Source: Suillus spraguei
Lineage: Eukaryota; Basidiomycota; Agaricomycetes; Boletales; Suillaceae
Direction of reading: 5' to 3'
Length of the DNA stretch: 64,000 nucleotides
Assembly: GCA_016800925.1 (NCBI GenBank)
Contig: JABCPU010000030.1
Coordinates: 248,001 to 312,000, forward strand
Position 1 is the stretch's first letter, and each line of letters starts with the position of its first letter. Position numbers and translations under genes: made by a program. The notes below the pieces were generated by a model. It was not told where the DNA came from. It worked only from the letters and a program-made list of their open reading frames with translations, and did no database searches. Of this stretch, positions 713 through 64,000 are shown piece after piece.

Positions 713-3700
713 TCAGAGGGCGTGTTGCTTCTTATAAGCATTCAAGATTCGAGCGGAGTTCTTCAAGTTCTTTTCTGGGAGCCATTCGTTATCTCCCGAT
801 GGATATCCTTTCCAGGAAACGAGATATCGTCGGCGATTGCCGGTTCCTTTGTGGGAAAGAATTGCTTCGATTTCATATTCTTCTTCTTCTTCAATGATAT
901 CAGGTGGGGGTTCAGGGAAGTTCGGTCCGTGTACATCTGTTTCGCTATAGGATGATAAGACAGAAGCATGGAACGTAGGATGAATCTTCCATTGCGGAGG
1001 AAGCTTGAGTGTGAACGTGATGGGTGATAAGACATCGATGATCGGGAAAGGTCCGTATCGTTTCGGTGCCAGTTTCCTTGATGGGAGTTTAAGTTTAAGA
1101 TTAGCGGCGGATAGCCAGACCTTATCTCCGATCTTCCATGGGATGTACTTATCTCCTCGGGATCGTTCGGCCATTGTCTGCATAGCAATGTTGTGACAGG
1201 CGATTGCTTCTTCTCTTATCTTCTGCAGAGATCGTACTCGATCTTCTGCTGCGGGGACGGATGAATCCGGGATCAGATGAGGGATAGCGCGTGGTTCATA
1301 TCCCATCATCAAATAGAAGGGTGATGCATTTCTTGCATCGTGTTTTCGGTGGTTGTGGACGAATTCGGCGATTGGTAAGTGTTCTACCCAATCCTCAGGG
1401 TTGTTGCGACAATAAATGCGGAGATATGTCTCAAGTTCTTGATTGAGCCTTTCCGTTTGACCATCAGTCTGCGGGTGGTAAGCCGTGGATGGAGCGATGA
1501 CGTAGTCGAGAAGTCGGGCAAGTTCCTTTGAGAAGCGAGATAGGAATTGCGGTCCTCGATCCGAGATAACTTTGTCATGGAGTCCAAATCGTCGGTACAC
1601 ATGTTTTAAAAATAGCTTGGCCACACCTTCTGACGTGATAGTTTTCAAACAAGGGATAATAATTACCCCCTTCGTAAGGCCATGGTCTACCACGACCATG
1701 ATACTGTCAAAGCCTCCAGAGACAGGGAGGTCAGTGATAAGATCAACGGAGACCTGGGAGAATGGGCGAACAGCCGATGAAGGAATAGGCGCAAGCGGAG
1801 GGCGAACAGGATGAGTATCCGCTTTCATCTGCTGACAAAGGGCGCAACCCTCGACGTATTTCCAAATATAGGAGCCCATTGCAGGCCACCAAGCTTCCCG
1901 TTTGACGAGTTCTTCAGTTTTGAATCTACCAGGGTGTCCCGCGGTAGGATGATCATGATACCTTTTCAGGATATCGGAGCGATGCGCTGGTGGAATATAA
2001 GCGCGATTCTTAAAATAGAGGACGTTCTCCTCAATCTTCCAATCGGAAAGTGCCGATTTCATGGGGGGAAGGCACACGCCATCAAGGGCGTCAGACGCTG
2101 TTTTGAAGACAGGGTCGTCGAGGGGGTCAGAGGATGACAGCACATCCTTCAAGTCAGTGTCAATAAGACGAACGAATAGAGCGTCAGGGAGGAGGGTCTG
2201 GTCCTCGTTATCGTCTTTTCCAGAGTCATAATCAGGCCGGCGGGATAGTGCATCAGGTACTGCTAATTTAGTACCTGCAACGTGATGCAGTTCGATGTCG
2301 TAAATAGACAAAATCAATTGCCAACGTGCTTGGCGACGGGTGAGCTTCTGTGCACTTCTAAAGTACAGAAGGTTCTTATGGTCGGTGAATACCAGGACGG
2401 GGTGTGGGTTTCCTTCGAGGTAATGACGCCATTCGTTCAGTGCCCGGATCACGGCGAGGAGTTCCCGATCAAAGATCTGGTAATTGCGTTCTGCAGGGTT
2501 CAAAGACTGTGAGAGGTATGCACATGGGTGATAGACACCATTCTCATCAGTCTGTAGGAGAACTCCTCCGGTTGCTACGAGCGAAGCGTCGGTAGCAATA
2601 GCAAATTGTCGGGAAGGATCAGGATTACGGAGTACCGGTTGGGATGTAAAGCGTTGTTTCAGTTCTTCAAAGGTGTCCATACATTCGGTTGACCATTCAA
2701 AGGCCTTATCTTTCTTTGTCAAATCGATAAGGGGTCTGGCGATGTCAGAATAGTGGGAAATGAACGTGCGGTAGAAGTTGCAAAAACCGAGGAATGACCG
2801 AACATCTTTTACAGATTTCGGGATTGGCCATTCGGAGATTCCCTTGGTTTTGGCGGTGTCCATAGCAACTTGTCCAGGGCGAATTATCATTCCGAGGTAT
2901 TCCACTTCTTCTGCATCGAAGGTGCATTTCTCCGGTTTCAAGAACAGGTGTTCTTTTCGTATTTTCATCAAAACTCGTCTGGTCCGTTCACGGTGTTCTG
3001 CCATTGTCGTAGAGAAAATCAGGATATCGTCCATATAGATAACCATCCATCCTTCATTGATTTCTTGTTGAAAGGTGCGATTCATGTATGCTTGAAAAGT
3101 TGCTGGGGAATTGCAAAGGCCAAAGAACATGACGTTCGGTTCAAAGAGGCCGAATTCCGTGGTAAAAGCAGCTTTCCACCTATCATCAGGATGGATGCGA
3201 ATGTTGTTATAACCGGACCGGATATCCATTTTCGTAAAGAACTGTGCATCATGAAGGCGTGCGACAAGGGAAATCGGGAGTGGGAGTGGATAAGCGTTCT
3301 TGACTGTCCAATCATTGATGTAGCGATAATCTTGACAGGGACGCAATTCTCCACTCTTCTTTCCTACAAAGAAGAAGCCACTAGCTTGAGGTGACTTCGA
3401 TTCTGAGATAAAGCCTTTCGCAACGTTTTCATCAATAAACGTTTTGACAGCAGCGCGTTCTTTTTCCGATAGCGGGTAGACCTTAGACGTACGAGGAATA
3501 AAACCGGGTTTGGTGTCGATCCGATGATCAATACCAGGGCGTTCGGGGGGTAGTTTGTTTAATCCATCTTTAGCAAAGACGTCTGCGAAGTCGTGCAAAT
3601 AATCCGGGACCAATTCTTCGAAGGATTTCTTTTTCTTTTCCTTCTCGTCCGTAGCGAATTCCTGAGCTTTGTTACTATATTTCAGAGTGGAGAGGGGAAT

Positions 3701-4810
3701 GGTGGAGTAGTTGGAGGTTTGTTCGAGTTGGGAAGTTCCATCATGTGTCAATGGTGTATCCATGGATACTTCCTCTATGATCCTCATGCTAACTCCATCA
3801 GTGTCGTATTCCACGAGAAATTCTCCATCCCCTAGTTCATATGAGGAAATTTCGCGTACTTCTGGTGCATGCCAGACGTCATTCATAGTGTTGAATTGGT
3901 CATCATCCTCAGTTGGGATCAACGAGGGCACGGGTTCTTCTGTGTCAGGGATTTCTTCTATTGAAGCTGAAGGAGTTTTCGGGGGAACGAAGAACTTGGA
4001 TAATTTCGGTACATTGGTGTCTCGTCCTGGGAGTTCTTCTTCCGGTTTTCTCTTTCCCTGTTTCTGTTCTTCTATTGGCCGTTGCTCAATAGGTTCTTGT
4101 CCGACCCGATGCTCGGGTTCGGATTCATTCTTGCGCTTCTCTGCGCGAGGGATCGGTGACACTGCTCGCGGCAATTGTACACGTGGAGTGAGTTCAATAG
4201 TACGTGGCATTCGTACTTCTGGTTCATGTTCGGGCACTTCAATAGAAGGCATGATAACTGGTTTCGGAAGACGGGAATGTTGCCACCTATTATGATTGAA
4301 GAGTCGAGGCAACCCGTTCTTCTTTCGATCTTCGTCCAGATCGATTTTGATCTCGTCTGATTTCTCTGTCCTTGGGAGGACAAGCGTTTCAGCAGCCCAA
4401 TCTATAATTGGGTTCATTGCTCGTAACCAAGGAATTCCAAGGAGGATTTGATCTCTCCTTCCGAGTTTGGTGATATTGAATTTTCCATACATGGTTCGAT
4501 CGTCAATCTTGACCACTAGGAGGCAGTAATGCGTGATTGGTCCTCCTTTTATGAGGGTTCCATCTGCCGTTGTAACTCGGAATGGTTCCTTGAGTTTTCG
4601 TCGTGTGATTTGATGGAGTTTCACAAACTCTTCTGAGATGAATGTTCCTGCTGCTCCTGAATCGATAACAGCGGTGGTGTCGACGGATTTCAAGCGAGTA
4701 CGCGAGTGGAGGGTGATAGGGACACGTAGTTCTTTTCTTTCACCTACAGCGCGTACAAGTCTTAGTATTACATTGGGAGAAACATACGTCGAGTCTTTGT
4801 TTCTCCACAT
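713..4810 (-). CDS. Ty3/gypsy pol polyprotein with chromodomain
   Basis: 1365 residues. Domains in order: aspartic protease (DSG at about residues 50-52), a long Pro/Glu-rich linker, reverse transcriptase (YMDD near residue 593), RNase H (start ATDASL), integrase with an HHCC zinc finger (H near 953, CxxC near 990) and the DDE core, and a C-terminal chromodomain in the last 60 residues (YLVSWKGYPSGDNEWLP). The chromodomain assigns it to the chromoviruses. The ATG at 4810 shares its first base with the gag stop (TGATG on the minus strand), so pol may be made by reinitiation or, being in the -1 frame, by frameshifting. An in-frame TTG one codon upstream is a less likely start. The frame is uninterrupted over 4.1 kb, so the copy is young or selected. 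Confidence 0.95.
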   Translation of the reverse strand: MWRNKDSTYVSPNVILRLVRAVGERKELRVPITLHSRTRLKSVDTTAVIDSGAAGTFISEEFVKLHQITRRKLKEPFRVTTADGTLIKGGPITHYCLLVVKIDDRTMYGKFNITKLGRRDQILLGIPWLRAMNPIIDWAAETLVLPRTEKSDEIKIDLDEDRKKNGLPRLFNHNRWQHSRLPKPVIMPSIEVPEHEPEVRMPRTIELTPRVQLPRAVSPIPRAEKRKNESEPEHRVGQEPIEQRPIEEQKQGKRKPEEELPGRDTNVPKLSKFFVPPKTPSASIEEIPDTEEPVPSLIPTEDDDQFNTMNDVWHAPEVREISSYELGDGEFLVEYDTDGVSMRIIEEVSMDTPLTHDGTSQLEQTSNYSTIPLSTLKYSNKAQEFATDEKEKKKKSFEELVPDYLHDFADVFAKDGLNKLPPERPGIDHRIDTKPGFIPRTSKVYPLSEKERAAVKTFIDENVAKGFISESKSPQASGFFFVGKKSGELRPCQDYRYINDWTVKNAYPLPLPISLVARLHDAQFFTKMDIRSGYNNIRIHPDDRWKAAFTTEFGLFEPNVMFFGLCNSPATFQAYMNRTFQQEINEGWMVIYMDDILIFSTTMAEHRERTRRVLMKIRKEHLFLKPEKCTFDAEEVEYLGMIIRPGQVAMDTAKTKGISEWPIPKSVKDVRSFLGFCNFYRTFISHYSDIARPLIDLTKKDKAFEWSTECMDTFEELKQRFTSQPVLRNPDPSRQFAIATDASLVATGGVLLQTDENGVYHPCAYLSQSLNPAERNYQIFDRELLAVIRALNEWRHYLEGNPHPVLVFTDHKNLLYFRSAQKLTRRQARWQLILSIYDIELHHVAGTKLAVPDALSRRPDYDSGKDDNEDQTLLPDALFVRLIDTDLKDVLSSSDPLDDPVFKTASDALDGVCLPPMKSALSDWKIEENVLYFKNRAYIPPAHRSDILKRYHDHPTAGHPGRFKTEELVKREAWWPAMGSYIWKYVEGCALCQQMKADTHPVRPPLAPIPSSAVRPFSQVSVDLITDLPVSGGFDSIMVVVDHGLTKGVIIIPCLKTITSEGVAKLFLKHVYRRFGLHDKVISDRGPQFLSRFSKELARLLDYVIAPSTAYHPQTDGQTERLNQELETYLRIYCRNNPEDWVEHLPIAEFVHNHRKHDARNASPFYLMMGYEPRAIPHLIPDSSVPAAEDRVRSLQKIREEAIACHNIAMQTMAERSRGDKYIPWKIGDKVWLSAANLKLKLPSRKLAPKRYGPFPIIDVLSPITFTLKLPPQWKIHPTFHASVLSSYSETDVHGPNFPEPPPDIIEEEEEYEIEAILSHKGTGNRRRYLVSWKGYPSGDNEWLPEKNLKNSARILNAYKKQHAL

Positions 4811-5646
4811 CAAAAATCCTGCACAACCCGTCGTACAGTTTCTTCATCTTCTTCTTCCCCTTTGACTTCGGTTTGTCGAAGTGGGGTCTTCTTCTTTCTA
4901 TCAGGACAATTATGGATGCGGTGTCCTGTCTTTCTGCATCCGAAGCACTGCCCTTTCTTCATGCATTCGGATCTTTCCATGTCGGCGATTCGATCTACGA
5001 CCATTGCATTGGAATCGCGGTTCGGAATATACCGCGCATTTCCATAGTTCTTCTTCTTCTGTTGTGGAACATGACGCGTCCTCATGGCGTTAAGCCGATG
5101 ATGGGCATTGTCAATAGCAACGCATTGCAACACAACATCTCTGAATATCTCGGAGACATCTCCTGTATTGAAAAGCTTTGTGAGGATACCCCAATTAAGA
5201 CCGTCTTGGAAGAACTGGATCTTCGTCGCGTTATCGGTGATATGAGCCTTGGCTGCAAGTGCCTCAAAGTCGGCGATGTAGGTGTGGAGATCTCCAGTTC
5301 CTTGTTTGAGATCTCTGAGGCGTGTGAGCGCGGTCATTCTGGTATCCACCGGTTCGAATGCTTCTTTGAAGCTCTTCATAAAATCCACCATCGTCCCATA
5401 ACCAACTTTTTGTCCCGAAGTGTCGGTAGATTGGGCGTGTTCAAGGAATTGTTCCTTCCAAGACTTGGCATTCTTCTCGGTCATGAAGGATGTTATGTAG
5501 ATGATCTTCTGTTTGTCGGTGGTGTAAAGCTTTTCATTGATGTCAAAGTGCAAGTTGCACGACTGGATAAACTCGCGAGAGTTATCACGATCTCCATCAA
5601 AACCAATCGGTTGACCGATCTTGTATTCGAATTCTTTGGTCGACAT
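4810..5646 (-). CDS. gag-like capsid/nucleocapsid protein
   Basis: 278 residues. The N-terminal two thirds resemble a Ty3 Gag capsid region (segments FIQSCNLHFD and AKSWKEQFLE, typical of retrotransposon Gag). A single CCHC zinc knuckle, CFGCRKTGHRIHNC (C-x2-C-x4-H-x4-C), lies near residues 235-250 and is followed by a Lys- and Glu-rich end. It would form the virus-like particle and bind the element RNA. Its TGA stop overlaps the pol start by one base. The start was taken at the first ATG, 5646-5644, about 200 nt inside the 5' LTR. Confidence 0.93.
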   Translation of the reverse strand: MSTKEFEYKIGQPIGFDGDRDNSREFIQSCNLHFDINEKLYTTDKQKIIYITSFMTEKNAKSWKEQFLEHAQSTDTSGQKVGYGTMVDFMKSFKEAFEPVDTRMTALTRLRDLKQGTGDLHTYIADFEALAAKAHITDNATKIQFFQDGLNWGILTKLFNTGDVSEIFRDVVLQCVAIDNAHHRLNAMRTRHVPQQKKKNYGNARYIPNRDSNAMVVDRIADMERSECMKKGQCFGCRKTGHRIHNCPDRKKKTPLRQTEVKGEEEDEETVRRVVQDF

Positions 5647-12567: not shown

Positions 12568-14760
12568 GTGACGTCTGGAGTGTTTGGAACAGAGTTTGGA
12601 GTGTTAGGCACAGAGTTTAGAATGTTAAGAACGGAGTTTGGAGCAGTGTTTGGAGCGTTTGGACCGGTGTTTGGATCGTTCGAAACGAGGTTGGGAGCGT
12701 CGGGGTTTGGAGAGTTTGGAACAGAGTTGGGAGCGCCGGGGTTTGGAGAGTCGGGAGCTTTGGATACAGAGTTTGGATCGTTCAAAACGGGGTTGGGAAC
12801 GTTTAAATCAGAGTTTGGATCGTTTGAAGCGGGGTCGGAAACGTTTGGATCAGAGTTTAGATCGTTCGAAGCAGGGTTGGGAGCGTCTGAATCAGAGTTT
12901 GGATCGTTCGAAGCGGGGTTGGGAACGTTTGGATCAGATTTTGTATCGTTCGAAGCGGGGTTGGAAACGTTTGAAACAGAGTTTGGATCGCTCGAAACGA
13001 GGTTGGGAGCGCCGGAGTTTGGAGAGTTTGGAACAGAGTTGGGAGCGTTTGGAACAGAGTTTGGATCGCTCGAAACGAGGTTGGAAGCGCCGGAGTTTGG
13101 AGAGTTTGAAACAGAGTTGGGAGCGTTTGGAACAGTGTTTGGAACGTTCGAAACGGGGTTGGGAACGTTTGAATCAGAGTTTGGATCGTCCGAAGTGGGG
13201 TTGGGAACGTCTGGATCAGAGTTTAGATCGTTTGAAGCGGAGTTGGGAACGTCTGGATCAGAGTTTGGATCGTTCGAAGCGGGGTTGGGAACGTTTGGAT
13301 CCAGAGTTTGTATCGTTCAAAATGGGGTTGGAAACGTTTGAAACAGAGTTTGGATCGCTCGAAACGAGGTTTGGAGCGTCGGGGTTTGGAGAGTTTGGAA
13401 CAGAGTTGGGAGCGTTTGGAACAGAGTTGGGAGCGTTTGGAACAGAGTTTGGATCGCTCGAAACGAGGTTGGAAGCGCCGGGGTTTGGAGAGTTTGGAAC
13501 AGAGTTGGGAGCGTTTGGAACAGAGTTTGGATCGTTCGAAACGGGGTTGGGAACGTCTGGATCAGAGTTTAGATCGTTCGAAGCGGGGTTGGGAACGTTT
13601 GGATCAGAGTTTGTATCGTTCGAAATGGGGTTGGAAACGTTTGAAACAGAGTTTGGATCGCTCGAAACGAGGTTGGGAGCGTCGGGGTTTGGAGCGTTTG
13701 GAACAGAGTTTGGATCGCTCGAAACGAGGTTGGAAGCGCCGGGGTTTGGAGAGTTTGGAACAGAGTTGGGAGCGTTTGGAACAGAGTTTGGATCGTTCGA
13801 AACGGGGTTGGGAACGTCTGGATCAGAGTTTGGATCGTTCGAAGCGGGGTTGGGAACGTTTGGACCAGAGTTTGTATCGTTCAAAATGGGGTTGGAAACG
13901 TTTGAAACAGAGTTTGGATCGCTCGAAACGAGGTTGGGAGCGTCGGGGTTTGGAGAGTTTGGAACAGAGTTGGGAGCGTTTGGAACAGAGTTTGGATCGC
14001 TCGAAACGAGGTTGGAAGCGCCGGGGTTTGGAGAGTTTGAAACAGAGTTGGGAGCGTTTGGAACGGAGTTTGGAACGTTCGAAACGGGGTTGGGAACGTC
14101 TGGATCAGAGTTTAGATCGTTCGAAGCGGGGTTGGGAACGTTTGGATCAGAGTTTGTATCGTTCGAAATGGGGTTGGAAACGTTTGAAACAGAATTTGGA
14201 TCGCTCGAAACGAGGTTGGAAGCGCCGGAGTTTGGAGAGTTTGGAACAGAGTTGGGAGCGTTGGGAACAGAGTTTGGAACGCTCAAAACGAGGTTGGGAG
14301 CGTCGGGGTTTGGAGAGTTTGGAATAGAGTTGGGAGCGTTTGGAACAGAGTTTGGATCGTTCGAACCGGGGTTGGGAACGTTTGAATCAGAGTTTGGATC
14401 GTTCGAACCGGGGTTGAAAACGTTAGTTAGGGTTGAGTTTGAATCGTTCCGAACGGGGTTGGGAACGTTTGGAACAGAGTTTAAATCGTCCCGAGCGGGG
14501 TTGGGAACGCTTGGAACAGTGTTTGTATCGTTCGAAATGGGGTTGGAAACGTTTGAAACAGAGTTTGGATCGCTCGAAACGAGGTTGGGAGCGTCGGGGT
14601 TTGGAGAGTTTGGAACAGAGTTGGGAGCGTTTGGAACAGAGTTTGAATCGCTCGAAACGAGGTTTGAAGCGTCTGAATCGAGGTTTGGATGAAAGTCTGG
14701 ATTGAGGGTTGGCAAGTCTGGAACGTTTGGATTCGAGTTTGAGATGTTTGGAACATGGAT
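12568..14760. repeat. Coding minisatellite, 21/42-nt units
   Basis: About 2.2 kb of imperfect tandem repeats. The basic unit is 21 nt, mostly paired into 42-nt units such as GATCGTTCGAAGCGGGG plus TTGGGAACGTTTGGATCAGAGTTTG. A higher-order block carrying TTTGTATCGTT recurs near 12939, 13310, 13610, 13869, 14153 and 14522 (spacing about 260-370 nt). On the minus strand each unit encodes seven residues of the type PNSVPNA. The unit has no stop codon in several frames, which produces long spurious open frames on the plus strand. It forms the tail of the chitinase gene and continues 0.7 kb past its stop codon. Confidence 0.95.
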
Positions 14761-16516
14761 TAGATTGTGGGGCGTCGTAACAGTGGTTGGAGCGGGGACT
14801 GGAATGAATAGCATGCCGGGTGTATTAACACCCATAGCCTTTCTGATAGAGTCTAGGAGAATATCGTTGTGATCACCAGCAACCTCCCACATTGTGAAAC
14901 CGCGCAGCCCAATATCCTTAATATACTTGCCCTTGGCAGCGAAAGACCGAGCATTGTCGAAGGAGATCATAACTTGCGAGGTTTCATTGTATGCATACGG
15001 CTGTAAAGCAGTGAAATCAGCACTGCTGCTACAATACGTGATCAAAGATGGAAACCTTACAGTTTGGCTGCATTCATCATATCTGACGTCAATGCCATCG
15101 GCGGGCGCGCCATCTTTGTTAAGGAAGCCGGCGTCCACAAGGCCCCAAAATCTGAATGTGCCACCTGGGCCATGTCTCACGCCACAAACATCGACGCTAC
15201 TAGTATCATCCCACGCGTCACCCAAGGGCTGCTTCGAGGCGTCGAAAGCGGGGTATGCAGCTAGCATCCTCGTGCCAGGCTCACCTGGCGTGCTCGTGCC
15301 AGCCACATCTGGCGTCTTCGAACTAGGCAAATCTGGTGTATTCTTGCTGGGCTCAACTGGCGTCCTCTTTCCAGGCTTATCTGGCGTGTTCGTGCCATCT
15401 TGCGTCTTCAAGGCAGGCAATTGTGGCGTATCTGTGCCAGGTACATCTGACGCCTTCGAGCCAGGCAAATCTGGTGTCTTCAAGCCAGAGTCGAAAGCGT
15501 CAGAGGGAGATACCCAAAACGAATGGCCGTACGAAGCGACTCCAAGCACGATCTTATTAATCGGCATGCCCGCAGCAGTCCAAGCCTTGATTGCAGAAAC
15601 GGCCGATCCCTGTCGGTGCTCGGGCGGAGCGCAGGTATCGTTCAACGGTGCGTTTGGCCCCACATTCGTAGCCCAAGGGCCCCAAACGTCGTAGTTCATC
15701 AAGGTAATGTAATCGAAGACTTGCGCAAAACCGGAGACGTCAGCAGATGGTTTTCCGCTAGAGTCTGTGAAGGGTTCAAGGGATACCGCGGCTGAGACTG
15801 TCAGATTTGTCCCCGCTGTGTTTTTGCGAAACTCTTGGAGGAATTGAAGATAATTGGACGTATCATCGACGCTAATTTTATTGCAACCGACACCCTGCTT
15901 GCCAGGATATTCCCAGCTGTTAGAAATCAAGGCCAGCTGGGGTTAGCTCATGGACTTGATCTAACAAGTATCCACGTACCTGAACTGGATGCCATCAAGC
16001 TTGTATTTATCAACAAAATCTGTCAAGGTCTTGACAAATGTCGTCCGGTTTTTAGATGTGGCAATGTTGGAAGAGAACCAAACACTCCCAAGCCAGCCTC
16101 CGACCGCAACATGGGCTTCAACACCCTGCACGTGCCTTAGATATCAATTGTAAAAGCGATAAACTCTCCTTCACTCACATGTGACTGGGCCTCGGAAACA
16201 AACTGAGGAAGTAGTTCGCCATGAGAGTCGTCTAGGCTTAGACTGTCGACGCTTGAAGTGGTGTTTCTAAGAGGCATTATCGCGTCAATCGCCCACCGAA
16301 GTGATATGCAATTAAGCCATCACAGGAGACTTACGCAAATGAGTAATACATGGTATTGTACTTCTCCCAGGTGATTTTAGACACTGGGTGATCTTTGGTA
16401 GCATGCCAGTTGGCATACCAACCTCCTATGACGGGGGGAGGTGTAGATTTGTCGGTGAGTTTGCTTGCGCTCACAGAGCACAGAGCAAGAAGAGGTACAG
16501 TGAAGATAGGTAGCAT
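13258..16516 (-). CDS. GH18 chitinase-like secreted protein with Asn/Pro/Ser repeat tail
   Basis: Four exons (16516-16335, 16266-16179, 16125-15980, 15916-13258) with introns of 68, 53 and 63 nt give 1024 residues. Residues 1-18 form a signal peptide. The GH18 fold is shown by AHVAVGGW (about residues 94-101), the catalytic region, ITLMNYDVWG, and GLRGFTMWE near the end of the barrel. The catalytic motif reads DGIQFSWEY (134-142) where GH18 enzymes have DxxDxDxE: the final Glu is kept but the two inner Asp are Gln and Ser, so chitin hydrolysis is doubtful. Nine 8-residue TPDLPGSK-like units (15268-15477) interrupt the barrel. The last 480 or so residues are heptad repeats (PNSVPNA type), probably a wall-associated or glycosylated stalk. 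The reading stops at 13258 after a one-base frame change at about 13301. A broken paralogue lies at 45204-46764. Confidence 0.82.
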
Positions 16517-20620: not shown

Positions 20621-20684
20621 CAAAGGTGACAGCTGCAACTGTACCAAATGTCAACAGCAGGCATGTAACTGCGCAATGATGTAG
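20621..20684 (+). pseudogene. Stray last exon of a metallothionein gene
   Basis: Reads GDSCNCTKCQQQACNCAMM then a stop, closely matching exon 6 of the metallothionein gene (27443-27517). Similarity continues into the 3' flank (20685-20825 versus about 27518-27650: ATCATGTGAC, GTGCCGCA(C/T)GATGTTGTACT, CCTCTTCG(C/T)GACA). No upstream Cys-rich exons are found before it, so it looks like the surviving 3' end of a duplicated gene. It keeps one Cys (CTKCQQQ) that the complete gene has lost. Confidence 0.7.
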
Positions 20685-26765: not shown

Positions 26766-27517
26766 ATGGTTAAAGACAGCACTATCAGTAACTGCGGGTG
26801 AGTACTCACTCGCCAAACCTTCTATTATAGTTTTAAACACATCCATAGCGCATGTTGCTCCTCGCTGGGCACTGACTGTGCTTGCCCCAAGGATAATTGC
26901 GACTGCGTCGACTGCGACAGCTGTGTCAACAAGCAAAACTCTCCCCAAGTACGTAGTTAAACACATTTTTGATTCGCCATGGCGCTCATCACCATCAGTG
27001 CGACTGTGACTCTTCGGGCACTGCCTGTGCTTGCCCCGAAAACAATTGCCGCTGTGTCAACTGCGTCAATTGCGACAATAAGCAACATTCTTCGCAAGTA
27101 CGTAGTTGATCGCACCTCTGACTCGCTATGGTCCTCATCAAGTCAGTGTAATTGTGACTCCTCGGGCACTGGCTGTGCATGCCCCAAGGGTAATTGCGAC
27201 TGCGTCAACTGCGACAGCTGTGTCAATAAGCAACACTCTCCACAAGTACGTAGTTAATCACATTTCTGATTCGCCATAATCCTCATCACATCAGCGCGAC
27301 TGTGACTCATCGGGCACGGGCTGTGCTTGCCCCGAAAACAATTGTCACTGCGTCAACTGTGTCAATTGCGACAACAAGCAACTCTCTTCGCAAGTACGTG
27401 GTTAATCGTACTCCTGATTCGCCATGATCCTCATCACATCAGTGCGACTGCAAAGGTACAGGTGACAGCTGTAACTGTACCAATCAGCAGCAGGCATGCA
27501 ACTGCGCAACAAAATAG
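26766..27517 (+). CDS. Multi-module metallothionein (six exons, tandemly duplicated)
   Basis: Exons 26766-26797, 26849-26948, 26999-27097, 27147-27245, 27295-27393 and 27443-27517, with introns of 49-51 nt, encode 167 residues. There are 38 Cys (23%), mostly in C-x-C pairs, and no aromatic residue, as in metallothioneins, which chelate Cu(I) or Zn/Cd in the cytosol. Exons 3-5 each encode exactly 33 residues, and exon 2 a related module, of the form C-x-C-x6-C-x-C-x4-C-x-C-x2-C-x2-C. Exons 2 and 4 resemble each other (PKxNCDCVxCDSCVNKQ), as do 3 and 5 (PENNCxCVNCVNCDNKQ), so a two-exon unit was duplicated. Exon 5 has Arg for its first Cys. Exon 6 ends in a shorter 6-Cys module. All splice sites are GT-AG. 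Long repeated metallothioneins are known from Cryptococcus (CMT1, CMT2); this architecture is similar in principle. Confidence 0.9.
26849..27442 (+). repeat. Tandem exon-intron duplication in the metallothionein gene
   Basis: Four units of about 148 nt (exon plus following intron). Introns 2-5 are nearly alike: each starts GTACGT(A/G)GTT and ends with a form of CCTCATCA..TCAG. Both exon and intron were copied, so the gene grew by DNA duplication rather than by retroposition. Confidence 0.9.
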
Positions 27518-28166: not shown

Positions 28167-29895
28167 CTATTTGCTCTCCATGTCAACTTCTGCATCACGA
28201 AGCATGTCTTCGATAGCGCCGATCTGCACATCAACTGCATCCATCTTTTTCTTGATCTGCTCGATTTCATCGTCGACGAGTGATTTCATCAATTCAAGTT
28301 CGTGGCTACGAAGACGTTGGTTCGGATGCTCGCAGCAAAGGCCCAGCGACTCATACGCGAAAGTTCGAGCATGCGCTTATTCATATAATTTTAAGTATCA
28401 GGAGGAGTGGTGTATGTCCACTTTAAAAAAATAAGATTGGTTTCAAGTAAACGTTCAAATAATGTTGCGAACGTACTGTTGTGGCCAATATCTTCACTCT
28501 CTTTGACGGCGGTTCGAGGTCTTCGTCACGATCATCACCTTGAGGTAAGATATCCTCGAGGCGTACGCGCTTACGGGGATTCGAGTGGTGAGGACCAGGA
28601 CTTTTGATGATCCCTTCGGAGATACACTCGTCATCAACGGTAGCATCATCAACAGTGGCCTTTTGATTCGATCTATTCTTCAATATAGTACTGGATATAA
28701 CAGACCTGGGAGGTAATGATTGAGCTTGTCTGGAGTGCAAAATGTAAGTGGAGAATCTGGAGATGGCCTCCTGTTGAGCGAGAGGCGGATGAACCAGGTA
28801 TTCCATAGCAGCTTCTTCCGACGTTGCTTTCAAGAGCAGATAATCACATGTATTGAACGAGCGCAAGTCCAACACGAAACAAGATGGTAACGCCTAGCGG
28901 AGTATAGACATGGGGAATGATGGAAAAGTATGCCACCGCTACCTTCATATAGGAAAACGTCCCAAATACGGTGAAGATAATCAACAGGCAACGTTCTGAC
29001 AAATAGCGTAGAGAACCTGTGCGAAATCATAAAACATGAAATCCCAGAGGTGCGAATTGATACGAACCAAGACTTTGCTATCGCGCTAGGGGGGATGCTA
29101 AACGTGACATAGAGCTTTTTGCACACAGGATCATTAGCTTCGATGGCTTTGCTGAGCAATGCAGCATCGACTTCTAACTGAATGGTATTGGCTGAGAAGT
29201 ACGGACGAAGATGAGCGTCCATCATCGATGCGAATATCCAAAAAGCATCTTCTTCGGGTGATAGCAACAACAGATGACCAGCTATAGAAGTCAGTCCTGA
29301 CAACCCCACATCAATCAGTAACGATGCGATGCTCGGACACAACGGAGATGCACCTGAGCTATATTGGATATCTGGAACCATAACGCCTGTAAGAGTGATA
29401 CTAAAGGGCCATCGAAGTGATGCAGTTGCGTCTGATCAGGGAAACACGTTTTTGCATCCTTCTCGATATCTGAAAATGCAGGAACTCTTTGCCTCTTGCC
29501 CAGCTGCGTATATACGCCGGGAATCGCACGTGCTTTGCTGTCACTGAGATGACACCACACCAAGTATCGTACCGACGAAGGCACTCCGTCCAACAATAGA
29601 CGCTTGACCTTCTTGTTTTGCATGCTTGAGATGGCGGTACCATAGGCAGGAGGGCCATCCACTTGACCTCACGCTGGCGGTGAGCATCTATTGACACGGG
29701 TGATTCCGCTGGCGGAGTACCCGGCGAGATCGCATCGGGGAGCATGGGAGACCGTGGGGCGCTCGAATGCATCGATGCAGCATCGCCTTGCATGATACCA
29801 GGGGAATCGAGGTACACTGCATCAGTGTCACGTCCAAGATACGAGGATTCTTGACTGGAGCGACCCAATGGTACTTGCGGTAAAGTGGGTTTCAC
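28167..29895 (-). pseudogene. TBC-domain (Rab GTPase-activating) gene, frame-damaged
   Basis: Clear TBC blocks on the minus strand: KVKRLLLDGVPSSVRYLVW (about 29600-29545), the IPGVY segment, HLLLLSPEEDAFWIFASMMD with the YF region near 29210, and TLPVDYLHRIWDVFLYEG near 28970, then a long C-terminal region ending in a coiled coil (MKSLVDDEIEQIKKKMD; stop at 28169). TBC proteins switch off Rab GTPases in membrane traffic. The frame is broken at about 29618 (one base missing in an A run), about 29383 (where the usual residues before VPDIQ are shortened) and about 28853, none explained by an intron of normal size. Real introns are visible near 29299-29345, 29013-29070 and 28897-28947. The N-terminus is not resolved. 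It is a decayed copy, or an intact gene with sequence errors. Confidence 0.6.
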
Positions 29896-30392
29896 AGCTC
29901 AAGTCCATGTTGTATGCACAGTTTCGCTCTCCTGATTATCCAATGAAGACATCACGCTTGCAGCATCGTAAAACCTCGATCTGATGCTCATCTTACCATG
30001 AAGCCGGGGAGACTGAGCTTTCCACGTAACGTTGTTGGTAGTCTCTGCATAAAGATCGCCCCTCGATTCCGATCCGATGGGGCTCAGACTTATGTCGCAG
30101 CTGAGTCAAGTACGTTGTTGACTGGACCAGCAGCTAACGGTGTCTAGCTCAAATTTCTGCGGGCTTTATCATTCGCTCGCGAGAGAGAAAAGGTATGGAA
30201 CGGCAAACGAGTGGTGGCTGACCAGAAGTGTGTGTCAGAGCTGACGTAAATATTTAAACTCAGGAAACGCAACCTTGAATGTTTTGAACAGTTCGCCTAA
30301 GTCAGATTTCATCATGTCCTCCGAGATTGGTAGCAATCTTCGTGGCATAGGGTGAGTAGCAGACTGCCTTCATAATTTCCCTGCCTTGATTG
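29896..30392. other. No gene recognised
   Basis: Upstream of the TBC gene; may hold its unrecognised first exon or promoter. Nothing else is seen. Confidence 0.4.
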
Positions 30393-37224: not shown

Positions 37225-40200
37225 CTATGCCTCACGGTGGAATCGTCACCCCCGAAAGTCGTCAGTCACACTTTTGTCACAGCAGTTCACTGCTGCCGCT
37301 TCAAATTCCGCTCGGCAACGCCTAAAAAAATTGTTACAGGTCAAAAATTATGATTGGTTGGTGTGACGTGGAGTATTGTAGGGGATGTGGTTGTAATTAT
37401 AATGGCTGTATGGTGCAGGAAATGCTTCATGAGAATGAGAACTATGTGGTCCATGATGAGGCAAATGAACTTGATGCTGGTGTGAAGTAAAATGTCCGGA
37501 AAATTGCTGAGATGCTGGTATGTTGCTGCGAGTTGGATGTACAGGAGGATTGTAAGGTATTTCATGGCGTGGATCAGGACTATTTATGTTAGAATCATTA
37601 GGATGTTCGCGAGAAGAATAATGAGAGCTATTGGCAGGTAGTGCTGGAATGGGTGGAATTTCAATGGTGCAGCGCTGATGGTAGTTGAATTGTCAGTTGC
37701 TGATGTGGCGTTTCTCGCGCGCGTTCTGCCATTGCCAAACAGAGCTGAAAATCGTGGGTTGTTGGCCAGATGAGCATTAGGTGGGTCGGCAATGTACTCC
37801 TTGATTCTCGAAGTGAGAGTTGCAACGGTCCCTCGCGAGAAAGCCCAGAGCGCCAGCAATGGCGATAAAATCATCCTTGAGTCGATAAGAAGATAAGGCA
37901 TCAAAGGTTTTCGTTGTGATGTCGTGCTCGATTCGAGTAAGTCGAGCGCTGTCATCAGCCTTTTTCTTGGCTTGCTTCTCGGCTTCGGCTTTCTCCTTCT
38001 CGCGTTGTTCTGCTTCATGTTTATTAAAATCTTCCTCGAGTTCGGGCAGTGTGACGAAGCGCGATCGTAATTTGACGGATTTCCTCGTCCGTTTCTTCTT
38101 CTGATTGGCCAGCTGTGTGTTTGACTCGGATAATGCTCGCTGCCCAAGCGTACAATGTGCGTTCGCAGATTGGAGCTGCGCGGTAAGCATTCGGATGATT
38201 TCAAGGAGTTTTTTATTGTCGTGATACATCCGCTGAAGTTGGTTCCACAGTGCATCCTTGGATAAAGACATGGCATGGCTGTAAGGGGGCAGGAAAGGGA
38301 CTGGGAGAGGTTCTGATAATGGTGAGGAAGACCGGGTGACATGAGTAGCAGATTCGTTGCTGTGCGTTGTTGAGGAGGATGCCAGTGGCTGGGGAGAAGA
38401 TTGTATTGAGACGGGTGCAGCTGCTAGCTCCGGATCATCAGTTGTGGTCACGTCAGCGGTATTTTCTTCATCGGTCTCCTGTTCGTCTATGTCTATGCTC
38501 TCACCATCAGATTCCAGCTCAATGTCACTGCCGTTTCCATCTTCCGAGTCCTCCGAGTCATTGCCGGGGATATAATCTTCATCAACATCCATTTCCGTGT
38601 CACTTGTGAAGGAAAACGGTGAGGATGGAACTTCGGTAGGATAAGATGGTGGCATGTGGGCTTTGGATGATGACGCCATGCTTGGTGCAAAATCTCGCTC
38701 CGTGAAAACTGAAGGGTCAAGGGGGTACAATCCAGTCTTTTTGAACGCGTTTTTGATGAGCTCGGGAGTGATGGCATTCTGGGTGGACATATATTCATGA
38801 ATGAAATTGTAACGATCGATTTCGATGCCCTCAGCGAGACGTTTATCACAGTGCTTGGACCAGGCACGTTGCACAGATGAAAATACGTTCACATCAAGTG
38901 GCTGCATTTTATGGGTCACCTTCGAAGGGAATGCATGACAGATGACACCATGCTTATATGCGGCCCTCTTCATCTTGTCCGTTTCATGTGAGTCATGCCC
39001 ATCATAGGTAAGAACAATGGGTTTTTCTGGATCGACACGGTGTTTCTCTGCGAAAGGAACAAAGAGTTCTGAGAACCACTTTTCGGCAATCTCACGATCT
39101 GTCCATCCTGATGGTGATGTCGAGAAGCTGTTTCATTAAGTTCACTAGATAAGACCACAGTAATCAGATGATCATGTTCACTCACCCTCCAACTTGATCT
39201 TTGAGATCTCGTAGGTCCGGAGGTGGCCCATCAGTAAGAACAAACCAGGGTGGCATTCTAACTCCTGCAGCAGAAATGCACTCGATAATTGTTACAAGCT
39301 CTAGGTTATCACTGTGCGTCCGGTACCGATTCACATCCTCTCTAGCAAAGATGAACTTGCTTCCATCATTCTTCCTTCCACCCCCCATCTGATTACCCTT
39401 TTCATCCATATTCCAATGATGCTCTGGCGGAATGCCCTTATATTTGACCTCGAGCTGCTTCCACATGTCAAAGAACTCCCCAATCGTAGCCTTGTTGAAG
39501 TTCTGGCTGCGCTTGGGATCTAGCCCACGTGGTTTTGACATACAAAGAGCAGGGTGCCGGCGTAGAAAGCCATAGTGCCAGTTGTGTCCTGGATAATGAC
39601 CAGTGAGATCAAAAACCTGAGCACGTAACTGCTTTGGGTGAAGAGGCTTGGCCATTGATGAATTAAGGTTGCACCAGTCGAGAATGGTCTGCTCTTGTGC
39701 AGGCGTGAGGATCTGCTGACCTACATGTGCCTCGCGACGTGGTTTATGTTCCCCTGAGTACCGTTCACCCAAAGTTGTGCGAGGTATCTAGTTTGATAAA
39801 ATCATGAGAGTTATTAAAACAGTGACTCGGAGAGGGCAAAATACTAGCTTACATTATTGGCCAATGCGGCTTCTTTGATGGTCTTGTAGACCTTGGTTGT
39901 AATCCCCTGGATGGCAGTCTGGATCCGCTGCTCATAAGTGGGATCACGCGACTCTCGTGATTTGCCTTTTGGGCGAACCATGCCTGAATGTGTCAGCTCA
40001 CTGAAAAGTCGTCACAGCCAGTCAACAGCCAGTGGTAGTATTTTTTAGAACTCCGCCACGGCAGCGCTCGGCTGGCTGTCACCAGCGTGACTTTGACGGC
40101 TTTCAATGAACTTCACCGTTTCTTAATAAAAATTGATCGTTCAACCTCGCAATGAAAGGTGCATGATAGAAACATCGACTCAAGTTCTGAATTGTGTGTA

Positions 40201-48269: not shown

Positions 48270-51200
48270 CTATGCCTCACGGTGGAATCGTCACCCCCGA
48301 AAGTCGTCACGACCTAAATATCTCACTCAATTCTTACCTCTACACACAATTCAGAACTTGAGTCGATGTTTCTATCATGCACCTTTCATTGCGAGGTTGA
48401 ACGATCAATTTTTATTAAGAAACGGTGAAGTTCATTGAAAGCCGTCAAAGTCACGCTGGTGACAGCCAGCCGAGCGCTGCCGTGGCGGAGTTCTAAAAAA
48501 TACTACCACTGGCTGTTGACTGGCTGTGACGACTTTTCAGTGAGCTGACACATTCAGGCATGGTTCGCCCAAAAGGCAAATCACGAGAGTCGCGTGATCC
48601 CACTTATGAGCAGCGGATCCAGACTGCCATCCAGGGGATTACAACCAAGGTCTACAAGACCATCAAAGAAGCCGCATTGGCCAATAATGTAAGCTAGTAT
48701 TTTGCCCTCTCCGAGTCACTGTTTTAATAACTCTCATGATTTTATCAAACTAGATACCTCGCACAACTTTGGGTGAACGGTACTCAGGGGAACATAAACC
48801 ACGTCGCGAGGCACATGTAGGTCAGCAGATCCTCACGCCTGCACAAGAGCAGACCATTCTCGACTGGTGCAACCTTAATTCATCAATGGCCAAGCCTCTT
48901 CACCCAAAGCAGTTACGTGCTCAGGTTTTTGATCTCACTGGTCATTATCCAGGACACAACTGGCACTATGGCTTTCTACGCCGGCACCCTGCTCTTTGTA
49001 TGTCAAAACCACGTGGGCTAGATCCCAAGCGCAGCCAGAACTTCAACAAGGCTACGATTGGGGAGTTCTTTGACATGTGGAAGCAGCTCGAGGTCAAATA
49101 TAAGGGCATTCCGCCAGAGCATCATTGGAATATGGATGAAAAGGGTAATCAGATGGGGGGTGGAAGGAAGAATGATGGAAGCAAGTTCATCTTTGCTAGA
49201 GAGGATGTGAATCGGTACCGGACGCACAGTGATAACCTAGAGCTTGTAACAATTATCGAGTGCATTTCTGCTGCAGGAGTTAGAATGCCACCCTGGTTTG
49301 TTCTTACTGATGGGCCACCTCCGGACCTACGAGATCTCAAAGATCAAGTTGGAGGGTGAGTGAACATGATCATCTGATTACTGTGGTCTTATCTAGTGAA
49401 CTTAATGAAACAGCTTCTCGACATCACCATCAGGATGGACAGATCGTGAGATTGCCGAAAAGTGGTTCTCAGAACTCTTTGTTCCTTTCGCAGAGAAACA
49501 CCGTGTCGATCCAGAAAAACCCATTGTTCTTACCTATGATGGGCATGACTCACATGAAACGGACAAGATGAAGAGGGCCGCATATAAGCATGGTGTCATC
49601 TGTCATGCATTCCCTTCGAAGGTGACCCATAAAATGCAGCCACTTGATGTGAACGTATTTTCATCTGTGCAACGTGCCTGGTCCAAGCACTGTGATAAAC
49701 GTCTCGCTGAGGGCATCGAAATCGATCGTTACAATTTCATTCATGAATATATGTCCACCCAGAATGCCATCACTCCCGAGCTCATCAAAAACGCGTTCAA
49801 AAAGACTGGATTGTACCCCCTTGACCCTTCAGTTTTCACGGAGCGAGATTTTGCACCAAGCATGGCGTCATCATCCAAAGCCCACATGCCACCATCTTAT
49901 CCTACCGAAGTTCCATCCTCACCGTTTTCCTTCACAAGTGACACGGAAATGGATGTTGATGAAGATTATATCCCCGGCAATGACTCGGAGGACTCGGAAG
50001 ATGGAAACGGCAGTGACATTGAGCTGGAATCTGATGGTGAGAGCATAGACATAGACGAACAGGAGACCGATGAAGAAAATACCGCTGACGTGACCACAAC
50101 TGATGATCCGGAGCTAGCAGCTGCACCCGTCTCAATACAATCTTCTCCCCAGCCACTGGCATCCTCCTCAACAACGCACAGCAACGAATCTGCTACTCAT
50201 GTCACCCGGTCTTCCTCACCATTATCAGAACCTCTCCCAGTCCCTTTCCTGCCCCCTTACAGCCATGCCATGTCTTTATCCAAGGATGCACTGTGGAACC
50301 AACTTCAGCGGATGTATCACGACAATAAAAAACTCCTTGAAATCATCCGAATGCTTACCGCGCAGCTCCAATCTGCGAACGCACATTGTACGCTTGGGCA
50401 GCGAGCATTATCCGAGTCAAACACACAGCTGGCCAATCAGAAGAAGAAACGGACGAGGAAATCCGTCAAATTACGATCGCGCTTCGTCACACTGCCCGAA
50501 CTCGAGGAAGATTTTAATAAACATGAAGCAGAACAACGCGAGAAGGAGAAAGCCGAAGCCGAGAAGCAAGCCAAGAAAAAGGCTGATGACAGCGCTCGAC
50601 TTACTCGAATCGAGCACGACATCACAACGAAAACCTTTGATGCCTTATCTTCTTATCGACTCAAGGATGATTTTATCGCCATTGCTGGCGCTCTGGGGCT
50701 TTCTCGCGAGGGGACCGTTGCAACTCTCACTTCGAGAATCAAGGAGTACATTGCCGACCCACCTAATGCTCATCTGGCCAACAACCCACGATTTTCAGCT
50801 CTGTTTGGCAATGGCAGAACGCGCGCGAGAAACGCCACATCAGCAACTGACAATTCAACTACCATCAGCGCTGCACCCATTGAAATTCCACCCATTCCAG
50901 CACTACCTGCCAATAGCTCTCATTATTCTTCTCGCGAACATCCTAATGATTCTAACATAAATAGTCCTGATCCACGCCATGAAATACCTTACAATCCTCC
51001 TGTACATCCAACTCGCAGCAACATACCAGCATCTCAGCAATTTTCCGGACATTTTACTTCACACCAGCATCAAGTTCATTTGCCTCATCATGGACCACAT
51101 AGTTCTCATTCTCATGAAGCATTTCCTGCACCATACAGCCATTATAATTACAACCACATCCCCTACAATACTCCACGTCACACCAACCAATCATAATTTT

Positions 51201-61175: not shown

Positions 61176-64000
61176 TTAGAGGGCGTGTTGCTTCTTATAA
61201 GCATTCAAGATTCGAGCGGAGTTCTTCAAGTTCTTTTCTGGGAGCCATTCATTATCTCCCGATGAGTATCCTTTCCAAGAAACAAGATATCGTCGGCGAT
61301 TTCCGGTTCCTTTGTGAGAAAGAATCGCTTCAATTTCATATTCTTCTTCTTCTTCGATGATGTCAGGGGGTGGTTCAGGGAAGTTCGGGCCATGTACGTC
61401 CGTTTCGCTATAGGATGATAAGACAGAAGCATGGAATGTGGGGTGAATCTTCCACTGTGGTGGGAGCTGGAGCGTGAACGTGATAGGAGATAAGACATCG
61501 ACGATCGGGAAAGGTCCATATCGTTTCGGTGCCAATTTTCTCGATGGGAGCTTGAGTCTAAGATTAGCGGCGGATAGCCAAACCTTATCTCCGATCTTCC
61601 ATGGGGTGTACTTATCTCCTCGGGATCGTTCGGCCATTGTCTGCATGGCAATGTTGTGACAGGCGATTGCTTCTTCTCTTATCTTTTGCAGAGATCGTAC
61701 TCGATCTTCTGCTGCGGGGACGGATGAATCAGGGATCAGGTGAGGGATTGCGCGTGGTTCATATCCCATCATCAAATAGAAGGGTGATGCATTTCTTGCA
61801 TCGTGTTTTCGGTGGTTGTGGACGAACTCGGCGATTGGTAGGTGTTCTACCCAATTTTCTGGGTTGTTACGGCAGTAAATACGGAGGTATGTTTCAAGTT
61901 CTTGGTTTAGTCTTTCAGTTTGACCATCAGTCTGCGGGTGATAGGCCGTGGATGGAGCGATGACATAGTCAAGAAGTCGGGCAAGTTCCTTAGAGAAGCG
62001 AGATAGGAACTGCGGGCCTCGATCCGATATAACTTTGTCATGGAGTCCAAATCGACGGTAGACGTGTTTCAAAAATAGTTTAGCAACGCCTTCAGAAGTG
62101 ATGGTTTTCAAACAAGGGATAATAATTACCCCCTTCGTAAGGCCATGGTCTACCACGACCATGATACTGTCAAAGCCTCCAGAGACGGGGAGGTCGGTGA
62201 TAAGATCAACGGAGACCTGGGAGAACGGGCGAACAGCCGATGAAGGAATAGGCGTGAGCGGAGGTCGAACGGATGAGTATCCGCTTTCATTTGCTGACAA
62301 AGGGCGCACCCTCGACGTATTTTCGAATATAAGAGCCCATTGCAGGCCACCAAGCTTCCCGTTTGACGAGTTCTTCAGTTTTGAATCTACCGGGGTGGCC
62401 CGCGGTAGGATGATCATGATACCTTTTCAGGATATCGGAGCGATGCGCCGGTGGAATATAAGCGCGATTCTTGAAATAGAGGACGTTCTCCTCAATCTTC
62501 CAATCAGAGAGTGCCGATTTCATAGGAGGCAGGCACACGCCGTCAAGGGCATCAGATGCCGTTTTAAAGACGGGTCGTCGAGGGGGTCAGAGGATGACAG
62601 CACATCCTTCAGATCGGTGTCAATAAGACGAACGAATAGAGCGTCAGGGAGGAGGGTCTGGTCCTCGTTATCGTCTTTGCCAGAGTCATAATCAGGCCGG
62701 CGGGATAGTGCATCAGGTACTGCTAATTTAGTACCTGCAACGTGATGCAGTTCGATGTCGTAAATAGACAAAATCAATTGCCAACGTGCTTGGCGACGGG
62801 TGAGCTTCTGTGCACTTCTAAAGTACAGAAGGTTCTTATGGTCGGTGAATACCAGGACGGGGTGTGGGTTTCCTTCGAGATAATGATGCCATTCGTTCAA
62901 TGCCCGGATCACGGCAAGGAGTTCCCGATCAAAGATCTGGTAATTGCGTTCTGCGGGGTTCAAGGACTGTGAGAGGTATGCACAAGGGTGATAAACACCA
63001 TTCTCATCAGTCTGCAGGAGAACTCCGCCGGTTGCTACAAGCGAAGCGTCGGTAGCAATGGCAAATTGTCGGGAAGGATCAGGGTTACGGAGTACCGGTT
63101 GGGAAGTGAAGCGTCGTTTCAGTTCTTCGAAAGTGTCCATACATTCGGTTGACCATTCAAAGGCCTTATCTTTCTTTGTCAAGTCGATGAGGGGTCTGGC
63201 GATGTCCGAATAGTGGGAAATGAATGTGCGGTAGAAGTTGCAAAAACCGAGGAATGACCGAACATCTTTTACAGATTTCGGGGTTGGCCATTCGGAGATT
63301 CCCTTGGTCTTGGCGGTGTCCATAGCAACTTGTCCGGGGCGAATTATCATTCCGAGGTATTCCACTTCTTCTGCATCAAAGGTGCATTTCTCCGGTTTCA
63401 AAAACAGGTGTTCTTTTCGTATTTTCATTAAAACTCGTCTGGTCCGTTCACGGTGTTCTGCCATTGTTGTAGAGAAAATCAGGATATCATCCATATAGAT
63501 GACCATCCATCCTTCATTGATTTCTTGTTGAAAGGTGCGATTCATGTATGCTTGAAAAGTTGCCGGGGAATTGCAGAGGCCAAAGAACATGACGTTTGGT
63601 TCAAAGAGGCCAAATTCCGTGGTAAACGCAGCTTTCCACCTATCATCAGGATGAATGCGAATGTTGTTATAACCGGACCGGATATCCATTTTCGTAAAGA
63701 ACCGTGCGTTATGAAGGCGTGCGACAAGGGAAATAGGGAGTGGAAGCGGGTATGCGTTCTTAACGGTCCAATCATTGATGTAGCGATAATCTTGACAAGG
63801 ACGCAGTTCTCCACTCTTCTTTCCTACAAAGAAGAAACCACTAGCTTGAGGTGATTTCGATTCTGAGATAAAGCCTTTCGCAACGTTTTCATCGATAAAC
63901 GTTTTGACAGCAGTGCGTTCTTTTTCCGATAGCGGGTAGACCTTAGACGTCGAGGGATGAAACCGGGTTTGGTGTCGATCCGATGATCGATACCAGGGCG
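61176..64000 (-). pseudogene. Chromovirus pol, right copy, four one-base deletions, partial
   Basis: Aligned to the left copy, it lacks a single A (plus strand) near 62572, 62271, 62307 and 63950. These shift the frame in the RNase H-integrase linker, twice around the integrase zinc finger, and before the reverse transcriptase. The reverse transcriptase (YMDD), RNase H, integrase core and chromodomain are otherwise conserved. Either decay or sequence error; all four losses are of the same base. Confidence 0.85.

Follow-up and report, generated by a model that had tools for sequence, protein, structure and literature searches.

The six predicted exons at positions 26766–27517, on the forward strand of the window (the whole 64,000-nucleotide stretch of Suillus spraguei DNA analyzed here), very probably form a single-copy and probably functional metallothionein gene in which exon 2 of a three-exon ancestor has been amplified in tandem together with its downstream intron. 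In this account splicing is predicted and metal binding is inferred. Joined in frame, the exons give a protein of 167 amino acids, with the coordinates and the composition that the first-pass annotation had claimed. The predicted protein has the general hallmarks of a metallothionein, being rich in Cys (38 of 167 residues) arranged in CxC and CxxC clusters, with three His and no Phe, Trp, or Tyr.

Exon 1 (26766–26797, 32 nt) carries the start codon and the short N-terminus MVKDSTISNCG, similar to MAKDCTCISNCG, the start of the Suillus americanus protein P0004, and ends at the phase 2 donor GTGAGT. Exon 2 (26849–26948) has 100 nt, one nucleotide plus 99, and encodes module 1, of type A. The next three exons are 99 nt each and encode module 2 (exon 3, 26999–27097, type B), module 3 (exon 4, 27147–27245, type A), and module 4 (exon 5, 27295–27393, type B). 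The Cys-rich C-terminal cap, CDCKGTGDSCNCTNQQQACNCATK, and the stop codon are found in exon 6 (27443–27517, 75 nt). All five predicted introns run from GT to AG and occupy 26798–26848 (51 nt), 26949–26998 (50 nt), 27098–27146 (49 nt), 27246–27294 (49 nt), and 27394–27442 (49 nt); the pattern of 99-nt exons 3–5 with introns of 49 or 50 nt had been described correctly. The phases computed from the exon lengths are 2 for intron 1 and 0 for introns 2–5. Since introns 2–5 are in phase 0 and exons 3–5 have 99 nt, units can be added without breaking the frame.

The last seven Cys of each module, at positions 3, 10, 12, 17, 19, 22, and 25, are common to all four modules. The first module Cys is located at position 1 in exons 3 and 4 and at position 2 in exon 2. 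In exon 5 it is absent, replaced by Arg, which leaves module 4 with seven Cys. The predicted protein contains the core CxCx4CxCx2C four times; 2000 shuffles of its residues averaged 0.07 occurrences and never gave more than 2. The dN/dS ratio (Nei-Gojobori) is 0.09–0.35 in every one of the six module pairs, calculated from ~19 synonymous sites per pair and with some dS values above 1, and the modules appear to be under sequence constraint. No matching family was found for the predicted protein in Pfam and NCBIfam, or for its relatives in a Pfam scan of five and an NCBIfam scan of four. The solved structures gave no meaningful match to the predicted protein; metallothioneins fold around metal. 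Rfam gave no match in the window.

No gene model is needed to see the repeated structure. Tandem Repeats Finder gives a period of 148 with 3.9 copies, and the array of four exon-plus-intron units extends over 26844–27444 on the forward strand with spacings of 149, 148, and 148. Each unit consists of the last 99 nt of exon 2, or of exon 3, 4, or 5, together with one of introns 2–5 (49–50 nt), giving the period of 148–149 nt. As the repeated unit comprises both exon and intron, the duplication took place at the DNA level. In the proposed mechanism, exon 2 and the downstream intron of a three-exon ancestor would have been amplified in tandem, by unequal exchange or replication slippage, and the last amplification step would have copied a two-exon block to give the module order A-B-A-B.

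The alternation of exons 2 and 4 with exons 3 and 5, and the two-exon duplication drawn from it in the first-pass annotation, are supported by the exons. Exon 5 is identical to exon 3 at 88 of 99 nt and exon 4 to exon 2 at 81, followed by the pairs 3/4 (77), 4/5 (75), 2/3 (68), and 2/5 (68). Among 13 informative exon sites, 12 fit the grouping (2,4)(3,5), one fits (2,5)(3,4), and none fits (2,3)(4,5). The introns are repeated as well, with only three informative sites, too few to decide: two for (2,4)(3,5), none for (2,5)(3,4), and one for (2,3)(4,5). The alternative that the four modules were added singly, in one-exon steps, and acquired their A-B-A-B appearance through later gene conversion would accommodate that one intron site and the observation that introns 4 and 5 (43/49) are as similar as introns 2 and 4 (43/50), with introns 3 and 5 at 39/49. 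The unusual likeness of introns 4 and 5 makes gene conversion or a more complex history possible. We nevertheless consider single-exon steps rather unlikely, given that 12 of the 13 informative exon sites fit (2,4)(3,5). In a six-row DNA tree, exons 3 and 5 join (85/88) and exon 2 joins a degraded copy from elsewhere in the genome, L005 (91/92), rather than exon 4, whose placement is left open; none of the three inner branches is fully supported. Our reading is that exon 2 may be the original middle exon and that the block duplication came later, for which the tree by itself is insufficient.

The spliced predicted protein was used as the query in a search of ~5.8 billion proteins, which returned two matches at E values up to 0.01, one from Suillus plorans (156 aa, E 1.9e-26) and one from Suillus paluster (96 aa, E 8.4e-13). 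Because of the S. plorans match and the four cores against 0.07 in the shuffles, the protein is not a product of chance. A three-row profile search added Suillus fuscotomentosus and S. americanus, plus two weaker matches, and a seven-row profile search gave 35 proteins at E values up to 1. Ten of these come from metagenomes and 25 have a species name; judging by genus, we take the latter all to be mushroom-forming basidiomycetes. The UniRef name Metallothionein is shown for seven of the 35. The metallothionein identity assigned earlier is thus upheld by a homologous family with such names, by the low dN/dS of the modules, and by an intact three-exon relative with equal intron phases, described below.

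The profile and single-sequence searches and the alignments show homology to single-module basidiomycete metallothioneins across the module and the C-terminal cap. The core is found once in 34 of the 35 relatives and twice in the S. plorans protein, P0001; these counts are lower bounds, as many of the protein models are partial or misannotated. The window protein, with its four cores, departs from the rule of one module per protein. The complete S. americanus P0004 has 66 residues, made up of N-terminus, one module, and cap, and in common with Boletus edulis P0008 and Cubamyces P0005 it shares the N-terminus, the core CxCPxxxCxCxxC, and the cap with the window protein. On the other hand, these proteins have one module instead of four, and the window gene is set apart by an extra CxxC in each module and by the loss of the N-terminal CTC of its relatives, which is replaced by S-T; one module Cys has also been lost. 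SlMTa and SlMTb of Nguyen et al. 2017 are candidate members of this single-module group. The wider family is a widespread, short basidiomycete metallothionein with one module, and the nearest relatives are Suillus proteins. In a protein tree, the window modules fall within a Suillus group (86/91).

The S. plorans protein P0001 (HD556DRAFT_722003) resembles the window protein in having two annotated modules with the extra CxxC and the cap. By comparison with the window array, its modules are of one type, with no A-B alternation seen. When exons 1 and 2 and intron 2 of the window gene are translated in a frame shifted by one base, they match the first 60-odd residues of the record at 38 of 58 aligned positions, and a third module is probably hidden in this stretch. 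In S. fuscotomentosus, the record opens, ahead of its module, with a stretch similar to translated intron and seems to start in an intron. Automatic annotation loses such genes, as had been anticipated for gene finders: two Suillus records of this family are misread.

The assembly searched for further copies comprises 86.2 Mb in 1256 contigs. An intact single-module gene (L008) was identified on contig C372 at 68120–68160, 68208–68295, and 68356–68430, encoding 67 residues with 16 Cys. Its exons have 41, 88, and 75 nt, the last being equal in length to exon 6 of the window gene, and its introns of 47 and 60 nt are in phases 2 and 0, the phases of the window gene. The exon order is also the same, the module being on exon 2 of a three-exon layout whose middle exon has four counterparts in the window gene; this correspondence is between two genes of one genome. 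In the protein tree the C372 gene is placed with Rhizopogon (94/90). A perfect TGACGTCA is located at −78 from its start codon.

Degraded copies are also present. L005, on contig C481 near 222 kb, retains one module, in which two core Cys codons are missing and which is otherwise open; of the 57 nt examined around its exon 1, the one open frame has no ATG. A long minisatellite of the GTTTGGAACG type (L005 2100–3166) lies directly downstream of this copy and also adjoins L002. The copies at C422:73892–77100 (L002) and C67:5322–8531 (L003) are 97.5–98.7% alike and have lost most of the module; they are perhaps two haplotypes, and their likeness points to an assembly in which both haplotypes are represented in places. 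Within the window, a remnant of a second metallothionein copy at 20624–20684 on the forward strand, lying 6 kb 5' of the intact gene, preserves part of the last exon (GDSCNCTKCQQQACNCAMM and the stop codon). The similarity of its 3' flank extends to ~20821 (148 of 203 aligned positions, 28 gaps), and the rest of the copy was not found next to it. Contigs C868 and C1069 also gave matches (29%, E 0.52). Based on the C372 gene, the degraded copies at three places, and the window array, the history of the family in this genome comprises duplication, decay, and one expansion.

A DNA search of the assembly revealed no second full copy of the window gene. An allelic copy was considered on contig C376, which carries a 96% copy of the 1.26 kb at 28778–30034, downstream of the gene. 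It was rejected since the match is confined to this segment over the 9.9 kb compared and stops short of the gene. Partial copies of the segment are found on C769 and C327, and it looks like a dispersed repeat rather than an allele. The upstream flank of the window gene is rich in repeats.

Soft metal ions such as Cu(I), Cd(II), Zn(II), and Ag(I) would be wrapped in thiolate clusters by the predicted protein, with about one cluster per module of 7–8 Cys, and the metal capacity would rise about in step with the number of modules. Judging from the 7-Cys units in the Tremella and Cryptococcus proteins, 7–8 thiolates per module would be enough for a small metal cluster. The four-module protein would therefore act as a high-capacity thiolate metal buffer. 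A few copper and metal promoter elements were sought in the 1 kb upstream of the gene, and none exceeded estimated chance. The motif ACGTCAT, picked post hoc, is present at −193 of the window gene and −76 of the C372 gene; it occurs seven times in the whole window and is given no weight.

Two other explanations of the locus have been weighed. The gene could be a copy in decay or already dead, inactivated so recently that its frame has stayed open. The degraded copies on C481, on C422 with its near-twin C67, and at 20.6 kb of the window show that such decay has occurred in this family, and the window gene itself has lost the N-terminal CTC and one module Cys. A dead copy is nonetheless very unlikely: the six exons remain in frame with GT..AG junctions, 38 Cys are kept, and the dN/dS values are low in every module pair. 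L005, by comparison, is missing two core Cys codons and an ATG in the frame examined. It is more improbable still, to the point of being hard to credit, that the locus encodes another kind of Cys-rich protein, for example a secreted effector or a structural protein, that merely resembles a metallothionein. Such a protein would be compatible with the lack of a Pfam match and with metal binding being a prediction, but it would not be expected to combine the absence of aromatic residues with CxC and CxxC clusters and 20-odd % Cys. It is also opposed by the UniRef name Metallothionein of relatives and by the N-terminus of the predicted protein, in which no hydrophobic stretch is seen by eye.

A functional metallothionein array may also be viewed as an evolvable dose control, in which unequal exchange under metal stress makes strains or nuclei differ in their number of modules and splicing gives a ladder of isoforms. 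We regard this extension as speculative and unlikely. The differences in module number observed here are between species and between paralogues. In the gene model, a transcript lacking exon 3, 4, or 5 would remain in frame and encode 30–31 Cys. With intron 1 retained, the frame closes immediately, at 11 aa; with intron 2, 3, 4, or 5 retained, a stop follows within a few codons of the end of module 1, 2, 3, or 4, leaving 9, 17, 25, or 32 Cys. Suillus is widely used as a reference genus for tolerance of heavy metals in tree-root fungi. An increase from a single module to three or four among close relatives, along with the preserved single-module gene, would provide a natural series that would test metallothionein length against metal capacity.

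Modular fungal metallothioneins are already known from Tremella and Cryptococcus. TmMT of Tremella mesenterica is a protein of 257 aa with 57 Cys, longer than the window protein and encoded by 10 small exons of 63–105 bp (PMC4755600). TmMT and Cryptococcus CnMT1 and CnMT2 are long proteins with repeated Cys modules and the core CxCx4CxCx2C, as in the window protein, and these 7-Cys-unit proteins carry a high Cu(I) load, with Cu40–Cu42 for 57 Cys (PMC4755600). Between its first and second CxC pairs the window protein has a spacing of 6, compared with 3 in the published unit, CXCX3CSCPPGXCXCAXCP (PMC4755600). The Tremellales 7-Cys unit CxCx3CxCx4CxCx2C has no match in the predicted protein. The first-pass annotation had suggested a comparison with fungal metallothioneins such as Cryptococcus CMT1 and CMT2; because the published Tremella unit is unmatched, the Tremellales proteins are analogues or distant kin and not the nearest family. 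The Neurospora unit likewise has no match in the predicted protein.

An internal duplication spanning exon and intron has been published for AcMT1 of the mushroom Agaricus crocodilinus; together with introns of ~50 bp, this is the feature that AcMT1-type metallothioneins share with the window gene (PMC12508003). The short heptaCys metallothioneins, including AcMT1 and ShMT1/2 of Suillus himalayensis, have products of 32–59 aa (PMC12508003). The heptaCys pattern C-x4-C-x-C-x2,3-C-x-C-x4-C-x-C of the AcMT/PiMT type has no match in the predicted protein, the C372 protein, or the 35 relatives. No report of a Suillus metallothionein with more than one module came up in a literature search covering few subscription journals, and within the literature searched the four-module A-B-A-B member of an otherwise single-module family is new.

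The window as a whole is rich in mobile elements. Tf2-type retrotransposon frames with reverse transcriptase, integrase, and chromodomain are located at 713–4843 and 61176–62426, both on the reverse strand, and DDE_1 frames at 49409–51196 (forward) and 37777–39132 (reverse). A long frame at 13258–15942 on the reverse strand contains a glycosyl hydrolase 18 (chitinase-type) domain.
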